Source: Defluviitaleaceae bacterium (GTDB lineage Bacteria; Bacillota; Clostridia; Lachnospirales; WRAA01). Taken from it: a stretch of DNA of 34,484 nucleotides. Positions 3,322-31,921 of the stretch are shown one piece after another. A program made the translations under genes and the position numbers. The notes under the pieces were generated by a model. It did no database searches. It saw only the letters and a program-made list of their open reading frames with translations, and was not told the DNA's origin. The stretch is from contig WRAW01000021.1 in the NCBI GenBank assembly GCA_009780015.1, positions 1-34,484 on the forward strand. The letters run 5' to 3'. The first letter of the stretch is position 1, and each line of letters begins with the position of its first letter.

Positions 3322-4278
3322 CTAAACGGACTTATGATGGCTGAAAAAATTTTCTGTACGACTGGCGATTTCTATGGGATCAAGACCATATTTGTCCATC
3401 AGTTCGGCGTGCGGGCCGGATTCCGTGTAGCAGTCGGCGATGCCCAGCCTCAGGAGGGGAGTGGGGAGTAGGGAAGAAAGCACTTCGGCGACGGCGCCTC
3501 CCAGGCCGCCGACAATGTTATTCTCTTCCACAGCCACAATTCGTTTGGCTGTGCGGGCCGCGGCAAGGATAGCGTCTTCATCAATCGGCTTGACGCAGGG
3601 CATTTCGATGATTTGCGCGGAAATGCCTTTCTCGGCAAGCAGCTTGTCGGCCTGAAGTACGCGGTGGACGGCTGCTCCGTTGCAGATGAAGGCGATGTCT
3701 GCCCCTTCCGTCTTTATTGGGTTGGCCTTGCCGATTTCAAATTTATATGAATCGAAAACTTTTGGAACCTCTCCTCTGCCGACGCGCAGATAGACCGGCC
3801 CATTGTGGCGGGTAATTACCCGGGTAATCTCTTCGGTTGAGCAGCTATCGGCAGGAACCACCACCACAATGCCCGGGATGCAGCGCATAATCGAAACGTC
3901 TTCCAAACCCTGGTGAGTTGTGCCTTCCACGTTGCCGGAAAGCCCGCCCAGGCCGGAAATGACCTTGACGTCCAGGTTTGGATATGCGATAAATGACCGC
4001 ACCTGCTCCAGCATACGCATGGCGGCAAAAGGCGCGTACGTGGCGCAGAAGGCTTTGCCTCCGCAGGAGGCGATTCCTGCGGCCGTAAGAGCCATGTTTT
4101 GTTCGCTGATGCCGACATTTATTACACGATTGGGGAACTCTCTGCGCATAGGCTCATAACCCATTGATTTTGTGGTATCGGCGGAAACGGCGTAAATCTG
4201 CGGGTTTTCTTTGGCCATTTCCAGCAGGGACTTGCCGAAGGCATCCCTTGTTGAATAACTGTCATATACAACGCCCAT
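3322..4278 (-). CDS. Transketolase, C-terminal subunit
   Basis: A 318-residue protein covering the pyrimidine-binding and C-terminal domains of transketolase. NVGISEQNMALTAAGIA holds the glutamate that activates thiamine diphosphate. A glycine-rich GLGGLSGNVEGTTHQGLEDV segment and the C-terminal domain (IVAVEENNIVGGLGG) follow. The start is placed at the ATG at 4278, preceded by GGAGGG and two bases after the partner's stop; a longer reading frame upstream only overlaps the partner gene. With the N-terminal subunit it should form one thiamine diphosphate-dependent enzyme moving two-carbon ketol units between sugar phosphates. Split transketolases are common in Clostridia catabolic operons, for example AptAB of apiose use. 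It is the last gene of the operon. Confidence 0.92.
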   Translation of the reverse strand: MGVVYDSYSTRDAFGKSLLEMAKENPQIYAVSADTTKSMGYEPMRREFPNRVINVGISEQNMALTAAGIASCGGKAFCATYAPFAAMRMLEQVRSFIAYPNLDVKVISGLGGLSGNVEGTTHQGLEDVSIMRCIPGIVVVVPADSCSTEEITRVITRHNGPVYLRVGRGEVPKVFDSYKFEIGKANPIKTEGADIAFICNGAAVHRVLQADKLLAEKGISAQIIEMPCVKPIDEDAILAAARTAKRIVAVEENNIVGGLGGAVAEVLSSLLPTPLLRLGIADCYTESGPHAELMDKYGLDPIEIASRTENFFSHHKSV

Positions 4279-4280
4279 GG

Positions 4281-5105
4281 TTATATGCCCTCCGTGATTT
4301 CTTTCCGTGCCTGAGCGTATTCGGCTTCGGTGGGAATTTTCTGATGCCAGTCGTTGTTGTGCTCCATAAAGCTTACTCCCTTGCCCTTGACCGTGTGAGC
4401 GACAACGACGGTCGGGCGTCCGCGAAACGCGACGCCGCGCTCCAGCGCGCTGACGACTTCTTCCATGCTGTGGCCGTTGATCTCTATTACGTTCCAGTTG
4501 AAAGCGCGCCACTTGTCCACGATGGGTTCAATCGGAACAATATCGTCGGTGGCTCCGGTGCTTTGAAAGTGGTTGTAATCCACAATGGCTATCAGGTTGT
4601 CAAGTTTCAGAGCAGGAGCCGTAATCGCGGCTTCCCACACGTTTCCTTCCTGTAATTCTCCGTCCCCCAAAATGACGAATACCTGGCTGTTCTTCGCCTG
4701 GTCTTTCAGATAATAGGCCATGCCGAGGCCGGCGGAAAGGCCGTTTCCCAAGGAACCGGCAGTCATGTCGACGCCGGGGGTTTTGTTCATGTCGGGATGT
4801 CCTTGAAGATTGCCCCCCACGCGGCGGACGTCTTTGAGCCACTCCATCGGAAAATAGCCCCGCTGCGCCAAAGCCGCGTATATAACCGGACAGGCGTGTC
4901 CTTTGGACAAAATTAAGCGGTCACGATCAGCCCATGCCGGGTTTTTCGGATCAATATTCATGATGCGGTAATACAAAGCGGTGACAATATCCGCGCAGGA
5001 AAGCGCCGGACCCGGATGCGAAGGTCCCTGCGCCTTAAAGGCTATCTCCAAAATATTCAGCCGCGTTTCCTTGGCTCGTTCCTTCAGGTATGGAATATCA
5101 TGCAT
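4281..5105 (-). CDS. Transketolase, N-terminal subunit
   Basis: A 274-residue protein covering the pyrophosphate-binding domain. It has the thiamine diphosphate/Mg motif GDGELQEGNVWEA (from about residue 147) ending near VDYN, and conserved histidines in GPSHPG (30), SKGH (70) and QGHPD (103). The length fits the N-terminal half of split transketolases. The ATG at 5105 follows GGAGGG at rather long spacing. The stop is two bases from the next gene's start, so the two subunits are translationally linked. It lies 21 bases after the otnC-like gene in the same operon. This suggests that the pathway product is rearranged with pentose-phosphate intermediates. The exact acceptor is unknown. Confidence 0.92.
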   Translation of the reverse strand: MHDIPYLKERAKETRLNILEIAFKAQGPSHPGPALSCADIVTALYYRIMNIDPKNPAWADRDRLILSKGHACPVIYAALAQRGYFPMEWLKDVRRVGGNLQGHPDMNKTPGVDMTAGSLGNGLSAGLGMAYYLKDQAKNSQVFVILGDGELQEGNVWEAAITAPALKLDNLIAIVDYNHFQSTGATDDIVPIEPIVDKWRAFNWNVIEINGHSMEEVVSALERGVAFRGRPTVVVAHTVKGKGVSFMEHNNDWHQKIPTEAEYAQARKEITEGI

Positions 5106-5126: not shown

Positions 5127-5729
5127 TTATAGTGTAATTGTATTCGCGGAGCTCTCATTCCTGAGAGACCAGGCGATTCTCGCGCCTTCCTCAAACTCTT
5201 CCAGCGCGTAAAACGCGGACAAAATATCGCTTCCTCCCGCAATAGGCCCGTGGTTTGCCAAAAGGTATCCGTTCGTATTTGAAATGCGTTCGGAAAACAG
5301 CGCAAACAGCTCCTCGGAGCCTGGAGGCGCGTACGGCACAAGGCATACGCTGCCAAGCCGCATACGCAGGTACGGCGTATAGGCTGGGATAACGTCCTGA
5401 TGGTTCTCGTGCGGCAGACATGACCAGAGTACGCTGTAAAAACTATGAGTATGTATTATGGCTTGTATGTTGGGTCGTTGTTTGTAAAGAGCGGTATGCA
5501 GCGGATATTCCTTGCTGGGCGCTATGTCTCCTGCATGTGCGCCCGTTTCGTCAATAAGGGCGAAGGAATCCGGCGTAAGGAAGCCGAAGCATGTGCCGCT
5601 TCCGGTAATATAGATGCCGTCCTGATGGCGAAAGCTCAGGTTTGCGGTTGAGCCGGAGGTTTTTCCGCGGTCGAACAGGCTTTTGGCAACCCAGATGGCC
5701 TGATCCATTGGCGTAAGCGATTCAACCAT
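5127..5729 (-). CDS. otnC: Class II aldolase/adducin family, OtnC-like 3-oxo-tetronate 4-phosphate decarboxylase
   Basis: A 200-residue zinc enzyme of the class II aldolase fold. Visible metal ligands are H93 and H95 in IIHTHSF and H160 in LANHGP; E74 in PSKEYPLH matches the catalytic acid position. It starts three bases after the kinase stop with AAGGGGGT ahead of the ATG. The family includes L-fuculose-phosphate aldolase, ribulose-phosphate 4-epimerase and OtnC. Pairing with a DUF1537 kinase is the hallmark of OtnC, which decarboxylates 3-oxo-tetronate 4-phosphate to dihydroxyacetone phosphate. The exact substrate is inferred from context; an aldolase on another phosphorylated sugar acid is possible. 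Confidence 0.8.
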   Translation of the reverse strand: MVESLTPMDQAIWVAKSLFDRGKTSGSTANLSFRHQDGIYITGSGTCFGFLTPDSFALIDETGAHAGDIAPSKEYPLHTALYKQRPNIQAIIHTHSFYSVLWSCLPHENHQDVIPAYTPYLRMRLGSVCLVPYAPPGSEELFALFSERISNTNGYLLANHGPIAGGSDILSAFYALEEFEEGARIAWSLRNESSANTITL

Positions 5730-5732
5730 GGC

Positions 5733-6980
5733 TTACCCCCTTGTCTGGTCAAAAGCCCGGCGGAAAAAGTCCGTTTGGCCGAAGTTGCCCGATTTTAGTA
5801 CAACGCGGATACCCTGACGTCTGGCCGGAATCATTACGGGAACTCCGAGAGCGATGCTTTCCCCTATGTGGAATGAGTCAAAGTCAAGCGCAAGAGTCAC
5901 GGCGCCGGATGTTTCCCCTCCCGCGACAATAATTCGCGAAAACCCGTTTTTAAAGGCTCGCTTTCCTACTTCCGAAAAAGTCTTTTCCAGCAAGGCGGCG
6001 GATGTTTCGGCGTCCTGCTCGCCGCGAGGCGCGCTGTATAAAAGAGGTTCATCATTTTGGTTTACGAAGCCCCACAGACTTTCAACCGTTTGACTGCCGT
6101 CAAGAAGCTTGCCTGGGTCTACGGCCAACGCGGCGCGCCCGCTGTCGCGATACTCCTTGATCTGAGCCTTGGTCGCGTCGGAGCAGCTTCCTGAAAGGGC
6201 GATTCCCTTGCCGGGGCATCTGCTGTCGATTACCGGGACATCCGCAAGTCCGTATTCCGACTTGTAGCGCTCGGCCAGGGGGGCCAGCAGCCCGGAACCG
6301 CCTGTGATAAGGCGCAGTCCTCCAAATACCTCGACAATTCGCCGTCCGTCGCTGCCGTCGGCATAATCGGGTATTACGTAGCAGCGCTTGTTTTTTTCCG
6401 CGCAACTTGCTGCCAATGCCGTAAGCTCCGCCTCTGGGCGATTCATGTCCGCGGCGTTCAGGACAAGGCAGGCGTACTTGCCCTGCGGTTCCATGAGCTT
6501 GGCCAGGTCGGAGTCCCACATGGGGTTTAGCGGGTGATTGCGCATATGGCTGTCGCTTAGGGGTATGCCGTCCACATACAAGAGTCCGTCTCTGACAACC
6601 CGCTTGTTAACAGGCAGAGCCGGGCATAGAAGAGTGTAGGGAATGTCGTATCTATCCAGCACCGCGTCCACCGTCGGGCCGATATTTCCTTTCGGAGTGG
6701 AATCAAAAGTGGAGCAATACTTGATGTAAAACTGTTTTGCGCCGCGCTTCTCAATAAAGCCGCACGCGTCAAGAGTATCCCGGACGGCTTCGTCTGCCGG
6801 AGCGTTGCGGGTTTTTAACGCTATAACCACTGCCGCGCAGTTTTGCAGGCTGTCGCTGTCTTGTGGCACGCCGTTGTACAGCATGGTCGGAATACCATTG
6901 TTGACCAAGAATGATGCCGCGTCGCTCGCGCCGGTAAAGTCGTCGGCGACGCATCCCAGCAGAAACGGTAAGCTTGTCAT
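5733..6980 (-). CDS. otnK: DUF1537 four-carbon sugar-acid kinase, OtnK-like
   Basis: A 415-residue ATP-dependent kinase of the four-carbon acid sugar kinase family. The N-terminal domain begins with LLGCVADDFTGASDAASFL, the family's acid-sugar-binding signature. The C-terminal nucleotide-binding domain holds IIVAGGETSGAVTLAL. The length fits OtnK (about 420 residues). Known members phosphorylate 3-oxo-tetronate at O4, but some act on erythronate, threonate or 3-oxo-isoapionate. It starts after AGGTG, with a 26-base leader between it and the repeat at 7007-7170. It is tightly linked to the otnC-like gene. No otnI (oxo-tetronate isomerase) gene is present in the operon. Confidence 0.87.
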   Translation of the reverse strand: MTSLPFLLGCVADDFTGASDAASFLVNNGIPTMLYNGVPQDSDSLQNCAAVVIALKTRNAPADEAVRDTLDACGFIEKRGAKQFYIKYCSTFDSTPKGNIGPTVDAVLDRYDIPYTLLCPALPVNKRVVRDGLLYVDGIPLSDSHMRNHPLNPMWDSDLAKLMEPQGKYACLVLNAADMNRPEAELTALAASCAEKNKRCYVIPDYADGSDGRRIVEVFGGLRLITGGSGLLAPLAERYKSEYGLADVPVIDSRCPGKGIALSGSCSDATKAQIKEYRDSGRAALAVDPGKLLDGSQTVESLWGFVNQNDEPLLYSAPRGEQDAETSAALLEKTFSEVGKRAFKNGFSRIIVAGGETSGAVTLALDFDSFHIGESIALGVPVMIPARRQGIRVVLKSGNFGQTDFFRRAFDQTRG

Positions 6981-7006
6981 TTCATCACCTGTCTTATTGT
7001 AGTATT

Positions 7007-7170
7007 AGGGCGTGTCCCCACTACGCAAAATGCATATCTTTGCGGCGGATTTTGCGCCCTTCGTCGTTGTTCGTTCCTTGCGTACCCAAGGGTACGCGGC
7101 GTCTCTCACGCCTAGAATGGCACAAAATCGCGCTCGCAAATATGCGCTTTTGATAGTGGGAACACGCCCT
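7007..7170. repeat. Nested palindromic repeat, copy E (variant ends)
   Basis: Ends are AGGGCGTGTCCCCACTA (7007-7023) and the reverse complement of its near-twin (7154-7170), 16 of 17 paired. The inside has TTTGCGGCGGATTTT on the left and CTCGCAAAT on the right. A central hairpin GCGTACCC-AA-GGGTACGC and the CCTAGAATGGC segment are also seen in the other copies. TA flanks both sides, as with Tc1/IS630-type target duplications. It sits between dctM and otnK and supplies the dctM stop codon. Confidence 0.85.
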
Positions 7171-8434
7171 ATTGCACGGCCCACATGGAGAGCGCCGGAA
7201 CAAACGTCACCAGCAACAGAACGAATGTCATTATGATGTAGAATGGAATAAGGCTCTTGTTCAGCCGGCCGAGGGGAACGCCAGACACAGAGCTGGCCAC
7301 AAACAATCCCGTTCCCACAGGCGGAGTAAGCAGGCCCATTGCCGCGTTAACTACAACGATAGCGCCAAAGTGCAGAAGGTCTACGCCCAATGAAACGGCT
7401 ACGGGAGCAAATATGGGCGTAAAAATCATGATCTTGGGGCCGCTGTCCATGAACAGGCCGATAATAATCATCAGTACGAGAATAATAAGCATCAGAAGCG
7501 TTTCATTGTCCGTAAGGTTCAGCATTATGCTCGAAACCGCCTGAGGTATCTGTTCCAGGGTCATCAGCCACCCGAAAAGTGAAGTCGCGGCGATAATCAT
7601 TGCGACTATGGCGGTGCTGAAAGAGGCTTCCATGCATATCTTGGGGATGTGTTTAATCTTTATCTCTTTGTACACAAACATGCCGATCAGAAAAGCGTAT
7701 AACGACACAACCGCTCCCGCTTCCGTAGGCGTAAAGACACCGCCAAATATTCCGCCGATAAGGATAATAGGCATCAACAAGGCAAGTATGGACTCCTTAA
7801 ACCTCTTCCACCGCTCGCCCCACGAGACCTTTCCTTCCTTGGGATAGCCCTTGATCCTGGCGTAAATATAGCCGTATATTAACACAAGAAAACCCATCAA
7901 CAAACCGGGAACCAGGGTGGCCATAAACAGGTTGCCTATGGAGACCTGGGCTGTTACGCCATAGATAATAATGGCAATGCTGGGGGGGATGATAAGAGCT
8001 ACCACGCCCGAAGAAGCCACAAGCGCCGCCGAGAAAGCCGGGTCATAGTTGCGCTTCTTCATTTCGGGCAGCATTATAGTGCCAAGCGCCGCCACATTGG
8101 CCACGCCTGAGCCGGTAATGGTTCCGAGGGCAATGCCGGAAGCGCCGACCACAAGAGCCAGGCTGCCCCGGATATTTCCAAGGAAGGCAAGAGCAAGGTT
8201 TATTATCCTGGAAGTAATGCCGCCATGGCCCATCAATGTGCCCGCCAGCATAAACAAGGGTATGGCCATAAGCGGAAAAGAGTCCAGCCCCGTGTACATT
8301 CGCTGCGTAAATATAGTTATCGGATAGCCCGAAACAGTTATAATTCCAAGAGACGCCAACGCAATCGAAAACCCAACCGGAACCCCCAGTATCAGCAGTA
8401 CAAAAAAAGTAACAAACAGTAAGATTCCAATCAT
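7169..8434 (-). CDS. dctM: TRAP transporter large membrane subunit DctM
   Basis: A 421-residue, highly hydrophobic protein with about twelve membrane segments. Family motifs include PLFMLAGTLM near residue 58, the glycine/serine-rich GTITGSGVANVAALG segment, and LLTPPVGTGLFV near the end. It carries solute across the membrane with a sodium or proton gradient, fed by DctP. The start ATG at 8434 follows AAAGGA. The stop TAG is made by the junction with repeat copy E, so the last codons may have been set by that insertion; the protein length is still normal for the family. Confidence 0.95.
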   Translation of the reverse strand: MIGILLFVTFFVLLILGVPVGFSIALASLGIITVSGYPITIFTQRMYTGLDSFPLMAIPLFMLAGTLMGHGGITSRIINLALAFLGNIRGSLALVVGASGIALGTITGSGVANVAALGTIMLPEMKKRNYDPAFSAALVASSGVVALIIPPSIAIIIYGVTAQVSIGNLFMATLVPGLLMGFLVLIYGYIYARIKGYPKEGKVSWGERWKRFKESILALLMPIILIGGIFGGVFTPTEAGAVVSLYAFLIGMFVYKEIKIKHIPKICMEASFSTAIVAMIIAATSLFGWLMTLEQIPQAVSSIMLNLTDNETLLMLIILVLMIIIGLFMDSGPKIMIFTPIFAPVAVSLGVDLLHFGAIVVVNAAMGLLTPPVGTGLFVASSVSGVPLGRLNKSLIPFYIIMTFVLLLVTFVPALSMWAVQ

Positions 8435-8464
8435 ATAAGCACATTCCTTTTCGTAAGTTTACTT

Positions 8465-8814
8465 AGAACCTGTATTCAGTACGCCGAAACGCTGCCTTAG
8501 CGGCTGAACTCCACCCCACGAAGCCAAAACCAGGCTTCGTGGGGGCCCCGGTTTTCCGCCACAGTCCACCCCATAAAGCCCAAACCGGGCTTTATGGGGA
8601 CCCCGGGTCGTCGTCAGCTCCTTGCGTACCGCTTCGGGTACGCTCAGTCCACCCCACAAAGCCAAAATCGGGCTTTGCGGGGGCCCCGGGCGTTGCTTCC
8701 TCCGCCTACGCTGGCGCTCCGGACGCTAAACGTGTGCCACCGGCACACAGTATCCTAGATTGGCGTAAAATCAGGCTCGCTAATCCAGCATTCCGGGTAC
8801 TGAATACAGGTTCT
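8465..8814. repeat. Nested palindromic repeat, copy A (350 bp, longest)
   Basis: Ends read AGAACCTGTATTCAGTAC and GTACTGAATACAGGTTCT, perfectly complementary over 18 bases and flanked by TTA/TAA. Inside are three CCCC...GGGG hairpins, a GCGTACC/GGTACGC hairpin, a GTGTGCC-ACC-GGCACAC hairpin and the CCTAGATTGGCG segment near the right end. It fills the dctM-dctQ gap (8435-8845), which otherwise holds only the dctM ribosome site. Short open frames through it are not genes. Confidence 0.9.
8514..8682. repeat. Three 12-bp hairpin modules with compensatory changes
   Basis: Stems lie at 8514-8525/8533-8544, 8569-8580/8588-8599 and 8652-8663/8671-8682, each with a 7-base loop. Left arms are CCCCACGAAGCC, CCCCATAAAGCC and CCCCACAAAGCC. 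The right arms change in step at two positions (C-G to T-A, G-C to A-T). Module 3 has one A-C mismatch. A fourth module, identical in stem to the second, is at 9462-9473/9481-9492 in copy B. Each is followed by a CCCCGG tail. Confidence 0.85.
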
Positions 8815-8845
8815 AACTATCGGCTGTACGGTTGCCGTACTATCG

Positions 8846-9319
8846 CTATTTCAGATCTTTGTTAAAGATAGTAAGGTACAGTTTTCGCAGTGAAAAGTAC
8901 AGCATCAGCGCGCCGCTGGCGGGCAGCACCATGAACACCATATGCATCGGAAGGGAAAGCGCCGGGCTGCGCTGCAAAGTTCCGATCCCTACCATTCGGA
9001 TTCCGCTCATCAAAATAGCCGCCGCCAGTATGACGGTCAGCGCAATGATTAAAAGATTAAGTCCCTTTTTGTACACGCCTGTCAGCTTGTTCGGCAGTAT
9101 GTCGAAGGCAACGTGAGAGCCCTTGTAATATACGGCTACAACTCCCAGAAAGGACATCCAAATGAATATGTACCGCCCAAGCTCCTCAGACCAGGGAATA
9201 GAGGCGCTAAGAACATATCTAAAAAATACCTGTACACATATTAATATCATCATAGAAAACATAAGGCCGGAGCATATCCAACAAAGGGCTTTGAATATGA
9301 CCTCATCCACTTTTTTCAA
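8846..9319 (-). CDS. dctQ: TRAP transporter small membrane subunit DctQ
   Basis: A 157-residue protein with four membrane segments, including SGLMFSMMILICVQVFFRYV and a segment around LGVVAVYYKG. SIPWSEELGRYIFIWMSFLG is the typical DctQ signature. A TTG at 9319 is chosen as start because AGGAGGT lies eight bases before it. The in-frame ATG at 9346 is upstream of that ribosome site and has none of its own. DctQ pairs with DctM in the membrane. The gene lies between repeat copies A and B. Confidence 0.9.
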   Translation of the reverse strand: MKKVDEVIFKALCWICSGLMFSMMILICVQVFFRYVLSASIPWSEELGRYIFIWMSFLGVVAVYYKGSHVAFDILPNKLTGVYKKGLNLLIIALTVILAAAILMSGIRMVGIGTLQRSPALSLPMHMVFMVLPASGALMLYFSLRKLYLTIFNKDLK

Positions 9320-9401
9320 GGTACGATACCTCCTATCAAAAATCATCCCATGAACCTGCCGACTCGCTCACTGTAGGCTCATGGGATGGGTGTCAAGATT
9401 T

Positions 9402-9610
9402 AGAACCTGTATTCAGTACGCCGAAATGCTGTCTATGCGGCTGGCCTTCCGCCACAGTCCACCCCATAAAGCCAAAACCGGGCTTTATGGGGACCCCGGG
9501 TCGTCGTCAGCTCCTTGCGTACTACTATGGGTACGCGGCGTCGCTTCCTCCTAGATTGGCGAAAAACCAGGCTCGCCAATCCAGCATTCCGGGTACTGAA
9601 TACAGGTTCT
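9402..9610. repeat. Nested palindromic repeat, copy B
   Basis: A 209-bp element. Ends AGAACCTGTATTCAGTACG and GGGTACTGAATACAGGTTCT pair almost perfectly and are nearly the same as those of copy A. The inside has one CCCC/GGGG hairpin (9462-9492), GGTCGTCGTCAGCTCCTTGC and GGGTACGCGGCGTC shared with copy A, and TCCTAGATTGGCGAAAAAC. It lies in the dctQ-dctP gap; 9347-9401 holds no gene. Confidence 0.9.
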
Positions 9611-9619
9611 TATTTCACG

Positions 9620-10669
9620 TTATCTTCCAAGTTCTGTCATTATTCTGTTAAACAGGTCGATGTCAATGGTTTGGGCAAATGGCTCGTGAGCTGTTCTGGC
9701 TACCGCGGAAATTCCGGCGATATCGGGATTGGTAACGGTTATACCGTCGGCCACCATTGAGGCAAGAAACTCGTCGGTCAGTTCGGCGACCCGGTAATTC
9801 TGGTATTCCGTCGCTATATTGGCCGCTTCGATAATAATTTCTTGCTGTGCCGGGGTCAGACCCTGCCAGAACAATTCGCTCATGGACATAGTTACATATT
9901 CGTACTTGTGGTTGGTTAAAGCGATGTAATTCTGAACTTCGTGTATGCGTCCGCTGTAGATGAACGGTATTGGGTTTTCCTGCGCTTCTATTACGCCCTG
10001 TTCAAGACCGGTATAAACCTCAGCCCATGCCATAGGAGTAGGGGACGCGCCCATAACATTCCAGGTCGTTACCATCGCGGCGATTTCAGGAACGCGTATG
10101 ACAAGTCCCTGTATGTCGTCCAGGGTATTTATCGGCCTGTTGGATGTTACTTGACGCGAGCCGCGGTTCCACCAGTTCAAAATGCGGATGCCCGACGAGT
10201 TTAGCACGTTTTGAGCGATCTCAGCCCCGGAAGCCCCGTGTATTACCCTGTCGAATTCATCCTGTGATTCAAACAGATAAGGAAGCTCAAGCAGCAGCAC
10301 GGTAGGCTCAAAAACGCCCAAAACCCCGGCGATTAATGCCATGTCCACAACGCCTATCTGCATACCTTCGCCCATATCCCTGTCGCCGCCCAAGGTGGAG
10401 TTGGGGAAGATAGTAACCGTGATATTTCCGCCGGACAGTCTTTCTACTTCTTCTTGGAATCTTACGGACGCCAGGTGCCAGATGTCGTTTTCATTCTGGA
10501 CGTGTCCCAGCCTTATGTTGACCGGATCGCCGAGATCACCGGCATCTGCGGCTGTTTCCGCAGGCGCCCCCCCACCGGCGGGTGCCGCTGGAGCAGCCGG
10601 AGCCGCGCAGGCTGAAAGCATCATGAACGACATCATTACAGCAACAATTACGGTAATACGCTTTTTCAT
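9620..10669 (-). CDS. dctP: TRAP transporter solute-binding lipoprotein DctP
   Basis: A 349-residue extracytoplasmic binding protein. It has a basic N-terminus, a hydrophobic stretch and the lipobox LSAC (Cys21), so it is a lipoprotein, followed by an Ala/Pro/Gly-rich linker. The core has the DctP pattern VIRVPEIAAM, whose arginine binds the ligand carboxylate in the family, then PTPMAWAEVYTGLEQGVIEA and QENPI. The substrate is therefore likely an organic acid, consistent with the sugar-acid genes downstream. The start follows AAGGAGG with a 10-base spacer. It lies between repeat copies B and C. Confidence 0.95.
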   Translation of the reverse strand: MKKRITVIVAVMMSFMMLSACAAPAAPAAPAGGGAPAETAADAGDLGDPVNIRLGHVQNENDIWHLASVRFQEEVERLSGGNITVTIFPNSTLGGDRDMGEGMQIGVVDMALIAGVLGVFEPTVLLLELPYLFESQDEFDRVIHGASGAEIAQNVLNSSGIRILNWWNRGSRQVTSNRPINTLDDIQGLVIRVPEIAAMVTTWNVMGASPTPMAWAEVYTGLEQGVIEAQENPIPFIYSGRIHEVQNYIALTNHKYEYVTMSMSELFWQGLTPAQQEIIIEAANIATEYQNYRVAELTDEFLASMVADGITVTNPDIAGISAVARTAHEPFAQTIDIDLFNRIMTELGR

Positions 10670-10703
10670 ATTGACATAGCCTCCTTGAAATATTTTGGTT
10701 CTA

Positions 10704-10867
10704 AGAACCTGTGTTCAATACCCGAAATGCTGGCTGGAAGAGGCAGTTTTTCGCCAATCTAGGAAGTGACGACGACGCGTACCCTTGTGGTACGCTAGGA
10801 GGAGTTGACGACGAGTGGCGGAAAACTGACCTTCTAGACAGCATTTCGGGTATTGAACACAGGTTCT
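10704..10867. repeat. Nested palindromic repeat, copy C
   Basis: A 164-bp element with ends AGAACCTGTGTTCAATACCC and its exact reverse complement; the match continues through CGAAATGCTG. The core is in reverse orientation to the other copies: TTTTTCGCCAATCTAGGAAG, then a GCGTACC/GGTACGC hairpin, then GGAGTTGACGACGAGTGGCG. It lies between dctP and the dehydrogenase gene, ending 18 bases after the dehydrogenase stop. Confidence 0.9.
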
Positions 10868-10885
10868 AAGCCGCTAAGGCGGATG

Positions 10886-11908
10886 TTATGGAAGTGTAAC
10901 GAGGACTTTTACAACGTTTTCCTTTTTCTCGCTTAGAACCGCTAAAGCGTCCTGAGTGCGGGACAACTCATACTTTTGCGTAACCAGATCGTTAAGATCA
11001 AGTCCTGTGTTAATCATTTCGACCGCTTTTACGAAGTCCTTCGTTTCGTATGTCATTGAACCAAACATGGTCTGCTCTTTAAAGACAATGGCATAGCTGT
11101 AAAACGGAATTTTTTCCGTAATCATAGATACGACACCGATTTCACCACGTTTGCGTACGCAATCGGAAGCTTGGTCTAATATGCCGGGAGCGCCTGCCGA
11201 TACAATGGCAAGGTCTGCGCCGCGCCCGTTAGTCAGCTCTTTGACTTTGGCCGCGACGTCTTCTGTGATAGGGTCTAAGGCGGCGGCGGCGCCAAGCTTT
11301 AAAGCCATTTGGCGGTTGAAGGGGGCGGTGTCTGTGCAAATAATGGTTTTGTATCCCATTTCACGGGCGACTATCTGAGTCAAAAGCCCTATTGATCCGG
11401 CGCCCAGGATCACGATGCAATCCTTTTCTTTAACGGTTACTCGATTCATTACGTGAACGGCAACCGCCAAAGGCTCTATCATTACGCCCATTTCATAGCT
11501 GATATTATCCGCGATCTTATGTACTGACTTCTCAGGAGCGTTGAAGAATTCAACAAATGTGCCGATCCACTTGGGGGTTCCCGGCGCCGCTTTATTAAGA
11601 CAGATGTTAACAAGATCCTGCTTGCAGAACTCACATTCTCCACAGCCGGAATGCGGTTCGACAGTCACGCGGTCACCGATTTGGAATTTTTTAACATCCG
11701 GGCCGACTTCAACAATGTCGCCCGCAACTTCGTGCCCCAATACCGCCGGCGGTTTGCGGAATGCGTGAGTGCCGTGGAAAAGGTGTAAATCCGAACCGCA
11801 CACCCCCGCTGCCGCTACCTTTATTAAGACTTCGTCATTTTTCAAAGCAGGTTTTTCGATGTCGTTAATTGACACAGTTTCTTTCTCTGTTACAAGCGCT
11901 GCTTTCAT
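10886..11908 (-). CDS. Zinc-dependent medium-chain alcohol/polyol dehydrogenase
   Basis: A 340-residue MDR-superfamily enzyme. Catalytic zinc ligands are in GVCGSD and GHE. Structural zinc cysteines lie in GCGECEFCKQDLVNIC. The Rossmann motif is ILGAGSIGLL, with an acidic residue further on (CTDTAP) that favours NAD. It resembles sorbitol/L-iditol 2-dehydrogenase and threonine dehydrogenase. It is the first gene of the operon, with AAGGAGG before the ATG and a clear promoter upstream. It probably oxidises a hydroxyl of the imported sugar acid to give the keto acid that the OtnK-like kinase uses. Known otn pathways use other dehydrogenase families plus OtnI, so the exact substrate is open. Confidence 0.88.
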   Translation of the reverse strand: MKAALVTEKETVSINDIEKPALKNDEVLIKVAAAGVCGSDLHLFHGTHAFRKPPAVLGHEVAGDIVEVGPDVKKFQIGDRVTVEPHSGCGECEFCKQDLVNICLNKAAPGTPKWIGTFVEFFNAPEKSVHKIADNISYEMGVMIEPLAVAVHVMNRVTVKEKDCIVILGAGSIGLLTQIVAREMGYKTIICTDTAPFNRQMALKLGAAAALDPITEDVAAKVKELTNGRGADLAIVSAGAPGILDQASDCVRKRGEIGVVSMITEKIPFYSYAIVFKEQTMFGSMTYETKDFVKAVEMINTGLDLNDLVTQKYELSRTQDALAVLSEKKENVVKVLVTLP

Positions 11909-11928
11909 TAAGGCCTCCTTCTAAGCAT

Positions 11929-11948
11929 ACTCCAGACAATATTGGAGT
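11929..11948. promoter_or_regulatory. Inverted repeat in operon leader
   Basis: ACTCCA and TGGAGT are perfect inverted 6-mers separated by 8 bases, between the operon promoter and the dehydrogenase start. The spacer includes most of the left CAATATTG palindrome. The position fits a repressor or activator site acting just downstream of the transcription start; it is unproven. Confidence 0.4.
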
Positions 11949-12030
11949 GGTTGTGTTTTAATTATATACAATTATCAATTGAAGTCAATACAAAATACTC
12001 AATTAACTGTCTTATTTTTAAACAATATTG
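11937..12030. promoter_or_regulatory. Paired CAATATTG palindromes in the divergent promoter region
   Basis: The 8-bp palindrome ACAATATTG occurs at 11937-11944 and again at 12023-12030, 86 bases apart, on either side of the operon promoter. Also present are CAATT-ATC-AATTG (11969-11981) inside the operon promoter spacer and TGTAG-TTT-CTACA (12053-12065) just before the regulator promoter. These are candidate sites for the divergently encoded regulator. Confidence 0.4.
11961..11988 (-). promoter_or_regulatory. Sigma-A promoter of the catabolic operon
   Basis: On the minus strand, TTGACT (11983-11988), a 16-base spacer and TATAAT (11961-11966), about 53 bases before the dehydrogenase start. 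No GG/GC -24/-12 (sigma-54) element is seen here. Confidence 0.7.
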
Positions 12031-12078
12031 TAAATAATGACGCCCGTACTGTTGTAGTTTCTACAGAATGTTAAAATG

Positions 12079-12107
12079 TTGACACAGTTTCCCCAATCTG
12101 TTATAAT
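12079..12107 (+). promoter_or_regulatory. Consensus sigma-A promoter of the regulator
   Basis: TTGACA (12079-12084), exactly 17 bases, then TATAAT (12102-12107): a perfect consensus, about 24 bases before the likely start codon. A strong, probably constitutive or repressible promoter. Confidence 0.85.
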
Positions 12108-12130
12108 TTTATATTAAGGATGTGACTACA

Positions 12131-13912
12131 TTGGATACAATTAAAATTCTTGCCATAGCTCCATATCAAGGATTAAAGGAATTACTTGAAGAAGCCGCGG
12201 CTTCTTATAAAGAAATAGAATTGCATTGCCATGTCGCCGATATGCATGATGGAGTAATGCTTGCGCGTTCTCTGAATTTAGAGGATTATTCGGCGCTTAT
12301 TTCCCGTGCCGGAACAGCGGAATTGCTGGATCAGTTTTCACCAATACCGGTGGTGGACGTTGGGATTACAGTGTATGACATGCTGCGTGCCACCCGCCTT
12401 TTGCAAAACTATAAGGGAAAGTTTGCCGTTGTCGGATTTTCGGCGATCACCGACTACGCGTTTATGCTAAACGATATTTTGCTGTCCAATCTTCAGATAT
12501 TTACCGTACGTTCGCAACAAGAAATTCTCGAATGCATGGAGCGGCTCAAGTCACAAGGCTTCAGTCTGGTTATCGGAGATATGATTACAGTAACAAATGC
12601 CAGGCGCTCAGGGCTAAACGCCATTTTGGTCACTTCTAACAGAGAGAGTGTCGACAGGGCTTTACAAGAATGTATACGGTGGCAGAAAAAAAACACATAT
12701 TCCAAGTGTGAAACACATGTTTATGAGAAATTGCTCCAATATGTAGAAGGCGGTTTTTTCATATTCAGCGCTGACGGGAAGTGTATTTTTAAAATGCAGC
12801 ACGAACATATAATTTCGGAAAATGATATGTCAAGCGTTTTAAACAGGTACGCAAGCGAAATATTTTCCGGGAAATTGCAGCAATTTGTTAGACAATACAA
12901 CGGAGTTTCATGCAAAATTCAGTTCCATATGGCTGATATTTCCGGCCAAGACGTATGCGTTTGCCATTGGAAGCCGATACAAACGCTTATGAGAGAAGAG
13001 CAGTCAATGGTGTCATATCAAAATCTGGACGATGCACCTACGGTAAACTTGGAAACATTCAAATCCTCAAGTTCTTCCTATCTTAAAACAATCGATACTG
13101 TAAAAAAATTCGCGAAAAGCAGGGTCCCAGTTATTATCAGAGGACAGCGGGGATGCGGCAAGGATAGCTATTCTTACGCTCTATACCGCTTTAGCGGGCA
13201 TACTCAAAAACCGATGATAACCATTGACTGTATGCAATATACTCCAAAAAAATGGGCCGCGCTTATGGAAAGTGAAAACTCGCCCTTGAGCGAATCGAAT
13301 TGTACGATATATTTCAAGGAAATCCATCTTCTCTCAAACAGCCTTCAAATGCAATTGGAGACATTTTTTGAAAGCACGCACATTCATAAGCGAAACCAGC
13401 TTATTTTCTCGCATATTCCCGGAGCTTCCGCGGAATTTGACGAAGGAAATCTATATTACTATATTCGCAATGTAATGCAATCACTTGTACTTTCTATCCC
13501 GACACTTAATGACCGCACTGAAGATATCCCGAATCTTGTCGCGTTATACCTTAACCAGATGAACGCTACAATGGCGAAGCAGGTTGTTGGTATGCATCCC
13601 GGCGCGCTTGCGGCTCTTCAAGAATTTTTTTGGGATGATGGGCTGGATCAACTCAAAAGAATCATGCAGGAACTGGTGGCACTTACGGAGTCGAGCTATA
13701 TCAGCGAAGACCTTACACGGGAGATACTGTGCAAAGAACAATCGTTAGCGACAACACAAGCAAACAACCCGCAAATAAACCTCAGCGGCACACTGGATGA
13801 AATCATAGATCAAGCTGTCACAACTGTTTTGAAGCAGGAAAACATGAACCAATCCAAAGCCGCCAAACGTCTTGGAATCAGCCGAAGTACATTGTGGAGG
13901 AGGATTCAATAA
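12131..13912 (+). CDS. PrpR-N domain regulator with degenerate AAA+ domain and Fis-type HTH
   Basis: About 593 residues. Residues 1-190 match the PrpR N-terminal sensor domain (IKILAIAPYQGLKELL, ALISRAGTAELL, VVDVGITVYDMLRA). A PAS-like stretch follows (about 205-290). The AAA+ domain has Walker A GQRGCGKDS near 341 (numbered from 12122). The GAFTGA loop that contacts sigma-54 is missing, and the Walker B region reads TIYFKEIHLLS instead of TLFLDEI. It ends with a Fis-type HTH (NQSKAAKRLGISRSTLWRRI). It is therefore unlikely to act as a classical sigma-54 activator. The start is set at TTG 12131, 10 bases after AAGGA; the GTG at 12122 is too close to that site. It is divergent from the sugar-acid operon, so probably its ligand-responsive regulator. 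Confidence 0.82.
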   Translation: MDTIKILAIAPYQGLKELLEEAAASYKEIELHCHVADMHDGVMLARSLNLEDYSALISRAGTAELLDQFSPIPVVDVGITVYDMLRATRLLQNYKGKFAVVGFSAITDYAFMLNDILLSNLQIFTVRSQQEILECMERLKSQGFSLVIGDMITVTNARRSGLNAILVTSNRESVDRALQECIRWQKKNTYSKCETHVYEKLLQYVEGGFFIFSADGKCIFKMQHEHIISENDMSSVLNRYASEIFSGKLQQFVRQYNGVSCKIQFHMADISGQDVCVCHWKPIQTLMREEQSMVSYQNLDDAPTVNLETFKSSSSSYLKTIDTVKKFAKSRVPVIIRGQRGCGKDSYSYALYRFSGHTQKPMITIDCMQYTPKKWAALMESENSPLSESNCTIYFKEIHLLSNSLQMQLETFFESTHIHKRNQLIFSHIPGASAEFDEGNLYYYIRNVMQSLVLSIPTLNDRTEDIPNLVALYLNQMNATMAKQVVGMHPGALAALQEFFWDDGLDQLKRIMQELVALTESSYISEDLTREILCKEQSLATTQANNPQINLSGTLDEIIDQAVTTVLKQENMNQSKAAKRLGISRSTLWRRIQ

Positions 13913-31649: not shown

Positions 31650-31716
31650 AACTCTTCACCTGTCAGCACAGTCTTTTATAATGATATGCTCTCACCCCTA
31701 CCGTAGTTCCGCTTTA

Positions 31717-31896
31717 AGAACCTGTTTACTATCTTTTTCCCATCGTCTTTGCGGCTGATTTTCCGCATTTCTTCGTCATCTCCTACGCCTACGCTGGCGC
31801 TTCGGATGCTAAACCCCGCCCCCGGCGGCGTCGGTTCCTAGAATGGCGAAAAATCAACTCGCAAATCCGACAGGGAAAAGATAGTAAACAGGTTCT
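31717..31896. repeat. Nested palindromic repeat, copy D
   Basis: A 180-bp element with ends AGAACCTGTTTACTATCTTT and its reverse complement. Inside are TCTTTGCGGCTGATTTTCCG, CTACGCTGGCGCTTCGGATG (almost as in copy A), and TTCCTAGAATGGCGAAAAAT with CTCGCAAAT (as in copy E). It lies between chemoreceptor 3 and the subtilase unit. In the 455-base gap 31650-32104 this element, the palindrome at 31922-32029 and a terminator take up almost all the space. Confidence 0.9.
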
Positions 31897-31921
31897 AAGA
31901 GCTTGTACATCTGCAACAGTT

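Follow-up and report, generated by a model that had tools for sequence, protein, structure and literature searches.

Short palindromic repeats between bacterial genes can act on the messages that carry them: RNase III cleavage has been described for Correia elements, RNase E effects for ERIC sequences and attenuation for BIMEs (PMC10969869, PMC3049150). Among the miniature inverted-repeat transposable elements (MITEs), Chunjie has been reported, going by a title cited in PMC10969869, within an operon that it left undisturbed. Here we describe a stretch of 34,484 nucleotides (the window), contig WRAW01000021.1 of a Defluviitaleaceae bacterium (GCA_009780015.1; contig C21 of a draft genome of 2.77 Mb in 183 contigs), in which four palindromic repeats, elements C, B, A and E, occupy four consecutive gaps of an operon on the minus strand that, from the gene calls, consists of a Zn-dehydrogenase, dctP, dctQ, dctM, an otnK-like kinase, a class II aldolase and a split transketolase (Table 1). 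Very probably each repeat is a separate insertion from a MITE-like family that is non-autonomous and high in copy number, mobilized in trans most likely by IS5-family transposases, and none was placed there for regulation. This interpretation rests on the family itself and its confinement to gaps, on target duplications, nesting and one empty site, on close kin elsewhere in the genome, and on an uninterrupted version of the operon in one other species.

The first-pass annotation, made from the letters of the window, had put these repeats exactly in the gaps between the dehydrogenase and otnK genes, and both the sequence and the gene calls confirm that they lie strictly in these four roomy gaps. 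Its lengths of 164, 350, 209 and 164 bp for E, A, B and C agree with the boundaries set by the terminal inverted repeats (TIRs), and the genes further downstream are, as it said, packed and repeat-free, the next gaps being 3, 21 and about 2 bp. Its view of a single palindromic family with long stems is likewise borne out, the predicted hairpins having minimum free energies of -88.8 (C), -119.6 (B), -200.4 (A) and -96.9 (E) kcal/mol, with z of -11.3 to -13.3 against shuffles. All are non-coding, 162-348 bp long, contain no transposase or conserved protein gene and end in TIR arms of 18-40 bp. Element C carries the TIR GAACCTGTGTTCAATACCC between TAA/TAA and element B the TIR GAACCTGTATTCAGTAC between TTA/TTA, while element A has a TIR identical to that of B and flanks TTA/TAA. 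Element E has a TIR of the GGGCGTGT type, a class also found in L101, L041, L135 and L145, and is flanked by TA/TA, such that the TAG stop codon of dctM is made of the target TA and the outermost base of the element. A short non-coding body, TIRs, dispersal in many copies and target duplications (clear in B and C, TA/TA in E, none in A) are all features of a MITE. An internal hairpin module of 42 nt (CCACCCCATAAAGCC...GGGCTTTATGGGG) occurs once in B and three times in A, and recurs elsewhere, for example in L034 3991-4203. Orientation within the operon is mixed, the core sense strand of element C being the plus strand, i.e. antisense to the operon and opposite to E, A and B.

The family extends well beyond the operon. 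A blastn search, run to convergence over 834 kb (the window together with the leading 20 kb of each of 40 contigs, 41 stretches in all) in which genes were predicted with a simple coding-score caller, found 89 family places, 86 of them clearly intergenic, three partly over a predicted gene and none inside genes. This is a density of about one element per 9.4 kb and, by extrapolation, some 300 copies genome-wide. Of the 40 contigs sampled, roughly one in four starts in or near an element (within the first ~250 bp: L034, L036, L041, L043, L047, L049, L051, L052, L062 and L065), so breaks in the assembly probably fall at the elements, with the number of copies underestimated. Most elements with GA[A/G]CC-type ends have TNA on both flanks, and an exact 3-bp TNA duplication is present in 31 of the 41 elements with defined ends, where shuffling gives an expectation of 15.3 and a maximum of 28 in 5000 shuffles. 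Since TGA/TGA and TCA/TCA flanks exist, this is true duplication and not merely an extended palindrome. Stop codons were not significantly preferred as targets (7/24 against 5.5 expected). One element, at L056 1189-1524, surrounds a second at 1260-1467, and the site of another, L034 655-785, is empty in a congener, G001, where the flanking genes are present; the junction alignment there is imperfect because the flanks are just ~69-77% identical. The exact end GAACCTGTATTCAGTAC has 26 matches in this genome and none across the order's 294 further genomes, which indicates a lineage-specific expansion; G001 is rich in related elements bearing other ends.

The terminal repeats are diverse around related cores (GAACCTGT, GAGCCTGTTTAATATC, GAGCCTATCC, GGGYGTGT and others, in L031-L070), and both ends of an element change together. 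In a different taxonomic family of the class, one genome (L117, G464:C52 5826-5907) matches the core of element C at 82% across 82 bp. Another palindromic family, with ends like TATAGTCAAACAACCTGAAA, is present at L054 17692-17853, L039 11155-11317, L059 2811-2935 and L056 19122-19227, and is apparently unrelated.

As an alternative to a role in the mRNA, the first-pass annotation had suggested that the repeats spread by a local copying mechanism. The common TIR of A and B and their 91-95% identity across most of B would suit such a process, in which a single founder gave rise to the others within the operon by copying nearby or by hops over short distances. However, element E belongs to another TIR class and has its best match on contig C28 (3492-3657, 95%), element C is closest to copies on contigs C56 (96%) and C22 (95%), and the similarity of A and B to copies on contigs C106 (93%), C43 (94%) and C4 (95% over 170 bp) is about that between A and B themselves. 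Similarity ranking already suggests that the four do not form one clade, and with close kin of each element elsewhere, local copying is unneeded; we rejected it, and give it next to no chance of being correct.

What remains of the original argument is the pattern of occupancy, which had been called unlikely by random insertion alone. Overall, 67 of the 618 gaps in the sample (about 11%) hold an element, and the share is alike in co-directional (52/495), convergent (6/62) and divergent (9/61) gaps. Among co-directional gaps, occupancy is 2/103 below 5 bp and ~9-18% above 20 bp, and this rise with gap size accounts for the packed downstream genes being repeat-free. Runs of two occupied gaps are observed five times, against 3.6-5.8 expected, and permuting the sample produces four in a row in 3-8% of cases. 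A narrower estimate by size class (12/113 occupied, 52 four-gap windows) expects ~0.007-0.015 four-of-four runs per sample. Scaled to the whole genome, the two estimates together span, very roughly, 0.02-0.25. The window having been noticed for that very pattern, we treat the four filled gaps as a mild outlier, picked after the fact. For a genome-wide, gap-confined family the pattern is only mildly unlikely; the filling of all four roomy gaps, while mildly unusual, needs no special regulatory explanation, and weak constraint in a permissive operon would suffice. Scatter over the genome without bias to this operon had been named as an outcome that would count against a special placement; the scatter is what we find, and the lack of bias nearly so.

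Full occupancy by such strong hairpins, together with the effects on mRNA known for Correia, ERIC and BIME sequences, could also be taken to mean that selection kept the repeats, the hairpins setting unequal mRNA of dctP, dctQM and the enzymes by attenuation, protection of 3' ends or cleavage by RNase III. We regard this as quite improbable. The family sits in gaps of every class at similar rates, and none of the seven terminator-like sites in the window, where shuffling gives 6.4, places an intrinsic-terminator U-tract at an element. Elements are oriented at random with respect to transcription genome-wide, the transcribed strand being the one with the stabler hairpin in 14 of 31 cases, and the operon exists in Clostridium symbiosum without long gaps. 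The designed attenuator or REP-like function proposed at first, by analogy with malEFG, finds no U-tracts and no uniform orientation to build on, and TIRs with target duplications are not REP features. Side effects of the transcribed hairpins on mRNA processing in the operon are nevertheless plausible.

The hairpins do carry a signal that hints at another kind of constraint. An alignment of 12 elements gives a consensus stem of 55 pairs, 17 of which have changed on both sides with pairing kept, and the consensus folds to -76.4 on one strand and -60.1 on the other, with the same core strand folding better across elements. In a strand-neutral self-alignment of 47 oriented elements, G-T mismatches outnumber A-C mismatches by 264 to 86, with 43 elements biased one way and one the opposite way, and disjoint sister pairs show one-sided changes of 95 against 49 (p 1.6e-4). 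A mutational keto skew as the source of the G-T excess is unsupported, the loops being 0.515 keto. This strand-polarised retention of G-U, which holds whichever way the neighbouring genes point, suggests an RNA-level or single-strand constraint, past or present, in the element's own polarity. The element could then be a structured RNA whose sense transcript, or one DNA strand, serves the element independently of any host gene, an account we consider unlikely. Sister pairs at least 95% identical show just 18:10 and those of G001 5:4, there is no match above the gathering score of Rfam in the window and no clear promoter belonging to the element itself, and shared ancestry with likely recombination among the copies means that inherited differences may inflate the bias, which weakens the test. 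In the same tentative spirit, and with as little expectation that it will hold, the family may be pictured as a mosaic mobile element that combines a shared hairpin core with several transposase ends, the core being kept as RNA on a fixed strand, past or present, whatever host gene it enters; the element would then be a structured RNA carried by a transposon and not just a palindrome in DNA.

For the insertion of MITE-like elements in trans, the likely mobilizing enzymes are those of the IS5 family, judging from the sequence of the ends. Searches with PF01609 and PF13340 returned only broken IS5-family (DUF4096) transposase genes. Two of these remnants, on contigs C149 and C10, carry TIR classes of the elements when compared by eye. 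The fragment on C149 starts beside TTAGGGCGTGTTTGAAAAAGG, within which the 15-bp GGGCGTGTTTGAAAA is common, again by eye, to L041:17306 and the G001 elements L135 and L145, and the first 8 bases of GGGCGTGTTTGAAAA are matched, by the same inspection, in element E. The C10 remnant ends in GAAACTGTTTAGGATCTTTTCC, identical by eye at 19 of 22 positions with the end of element F. The 3-bp TNA duplication of the main class we take to be IS1031-like. Within L102 (G000:C10 ~37.4-38.1 kb) a segment with GGGTGTAAAC and GTATTTACACCC at its borders apparently interrupts a degenerate IS5-family element and, by eye, seems to encode an HNH-type protein.

Most likely, then, DUF4096-type transposases acted in trans on the ends of the elements. 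Insertion takes place at TNA or TA targets, which it duplicates, and the host tolerates it in intergenic positions alone. If the target is itself a TAA or TGA stop codon, or a TA with which a gene closes, insertion regenerates a stop codon. The operon would originally have had four gaps of ~24-63 bp, all four of which happened to fill, and the packed downstream genes would have offered almost no insertion site. The hairpins would not be positioned for regulation on this scheme, and would have no selected regulatory role.

Several observations weigh against this interpretation. The draft genome, which breaks at repeats, yielded no intact autonomous insertion sequence (IS) bearing exactly these ends, and element A has no matching target duplication. 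Four of four filled gaps exceeds expectation (0.007-0.08 per 834 kb) and leaves room for a local bias, and a purely DNA-level palindrome does not predict a G-U preference on a fixed strand. Moreover, G001 has no DctP match, so that no empty site is demonstrable for the four insertions.

The nearest matches of DctP in GTDB contigs are in C. symbiosum and another Clostridia strain (50-52%); among the 38 relatives listed, DctP was above threshold in just two other genomes, at 33-34%. In C. symbiosum (L074) the regulator, dehydrogenase, dctP, dctQ and dctM stand in the same order, tightly packed, with gaps of 28, 81 and -4 bp (dctQ and dctM overlap) and then 45 bp to the next gene. Identity with the window is 60% for the dehydrogenase, 57% for DctM, 34% for DctQ and 37% for the regulator homolog at the equivalent position. 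Element A puts 411 bp between dctQ and dctM, a separation that would abolish any translational coupling of the two genes. The operon is one of sugar-acid uptake and breakdown. Between its first gene and the divergent regulator (interval 11928-12107) lie two divergent sigma-70-like promoters, at 12079-12107 (+, 12/12) and 11988-11961 (-, 11/12), and a palindrome, ACTCCAGACAATATTGGAGT, that is a candidate operator.

Table 1. Elements and operon genes of the window (positions counted from its first letter).
Feature	Position	With target bases	Strand	Location, ends or basis
Element C, 162-bp MITE-like hairpin	10705-10866	10702-10869	+	dehydrogenase-dctP gap
Element B, 207 bp	9403-9609	9400-9612	-	dctP-dctQ gap
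Element A, 348 bp	8466-8813	8463-8816	-	dctQ-dctM gap
Element E, 162 bp	7008-7169	7005-7172	-	dctM-otnK gap
Element F, fifth copy in the window, 178 bp	31718-31895	31715-31898	-	TIR GAACCTGTTTACTATCTTTTTCCC, TAA/TAA
PrpR/sigma-54-type regulator, divergent from operon	12122-13912		+	
Zn-binding dehydrogenase, operon gene 1	10886-11908		-	gene call, homology
dctP, TRAP transporter solute-binding protein	9620-10669		-	gene call, homology
dctQ	8846-9346		-	gene call, homology
dctM	7169-8434		-	gene call, homology
otnK-like four-carbon acid sugar kinase, SBD_N + NBD_C	5733-6980		-	domains
Class II aldolase, otnC-like	5127-5729		-	
Transketolase N-terminal subunit	4281-5105		-	
Transketolase C-terminal subunit	3322-4278		-	

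Taken as MITE-like insertions, these repeats illustrate how densely a miniature transposon can occupy the intergenic space of a compact genome while leaving its genes intact. They also counsel caution, in that regulation should not be read into the placement of repeats where gap size largely predicts it. If the strand-polarised evolution of the hairpins proves true under recombination-aware analysis, selection of bacterial MITEs as RNA becomes testable.

Among known systems, the elements are most like the bacterial MITEs Nezha, Chunjie and Correia/NEMIS (PMC10969869), which are also below 500 bp, non-coding and intergenic, with TIRs, target duplications, hairpin transcripts and high copy number; the present family differs in having related cores with several TIRs, an estimated ~300 copies and a G+C-rich hairpin core. 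Shared with RUP of Streptococcus pneumoniae (PMC3049150), an element of ~100-200 bp, are presumed mobilization in trans by an IS whose ends match and a tendency of small repeats to cluster and nest, but RUP is linked to IS630-Spn1 and A+T-rich, whereas the ends here suggest IS5-family transposases and TNA or TA targets. BOX of the same species (PMC3049150) is modular, as is the series of 42-nt units in B and A, but the terminal repeats here are longer, and the likeness seen is in modular layout and not in sequence. ERIC of the Enterobacteriaceae (PMC2267715) is likewise a long imperfect palindrome, intergenic, within transcription units and with a common predicted secondary structure, and differs in sequence, host group and ends. 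REP/BIME sequences are also palindromic, intergenic and found inside operons, but REP units, 20-40 bp long (PMC3733652) and without TIRs or TNA duplications, fit these TIR-bounded elements of several times that size neither in length nor in anatomy. The IS427-like group of the IS5 family (PMC3281130) is a further comparison, as DUF4096 transposase remnants with ends similar to those of the elements occur in this genome; IS427 elements mostly make 2-bp duplications (PMC3281130), whereas the elements described here carry no transposase and, in their main class, duplicate a 3-bp TNA.

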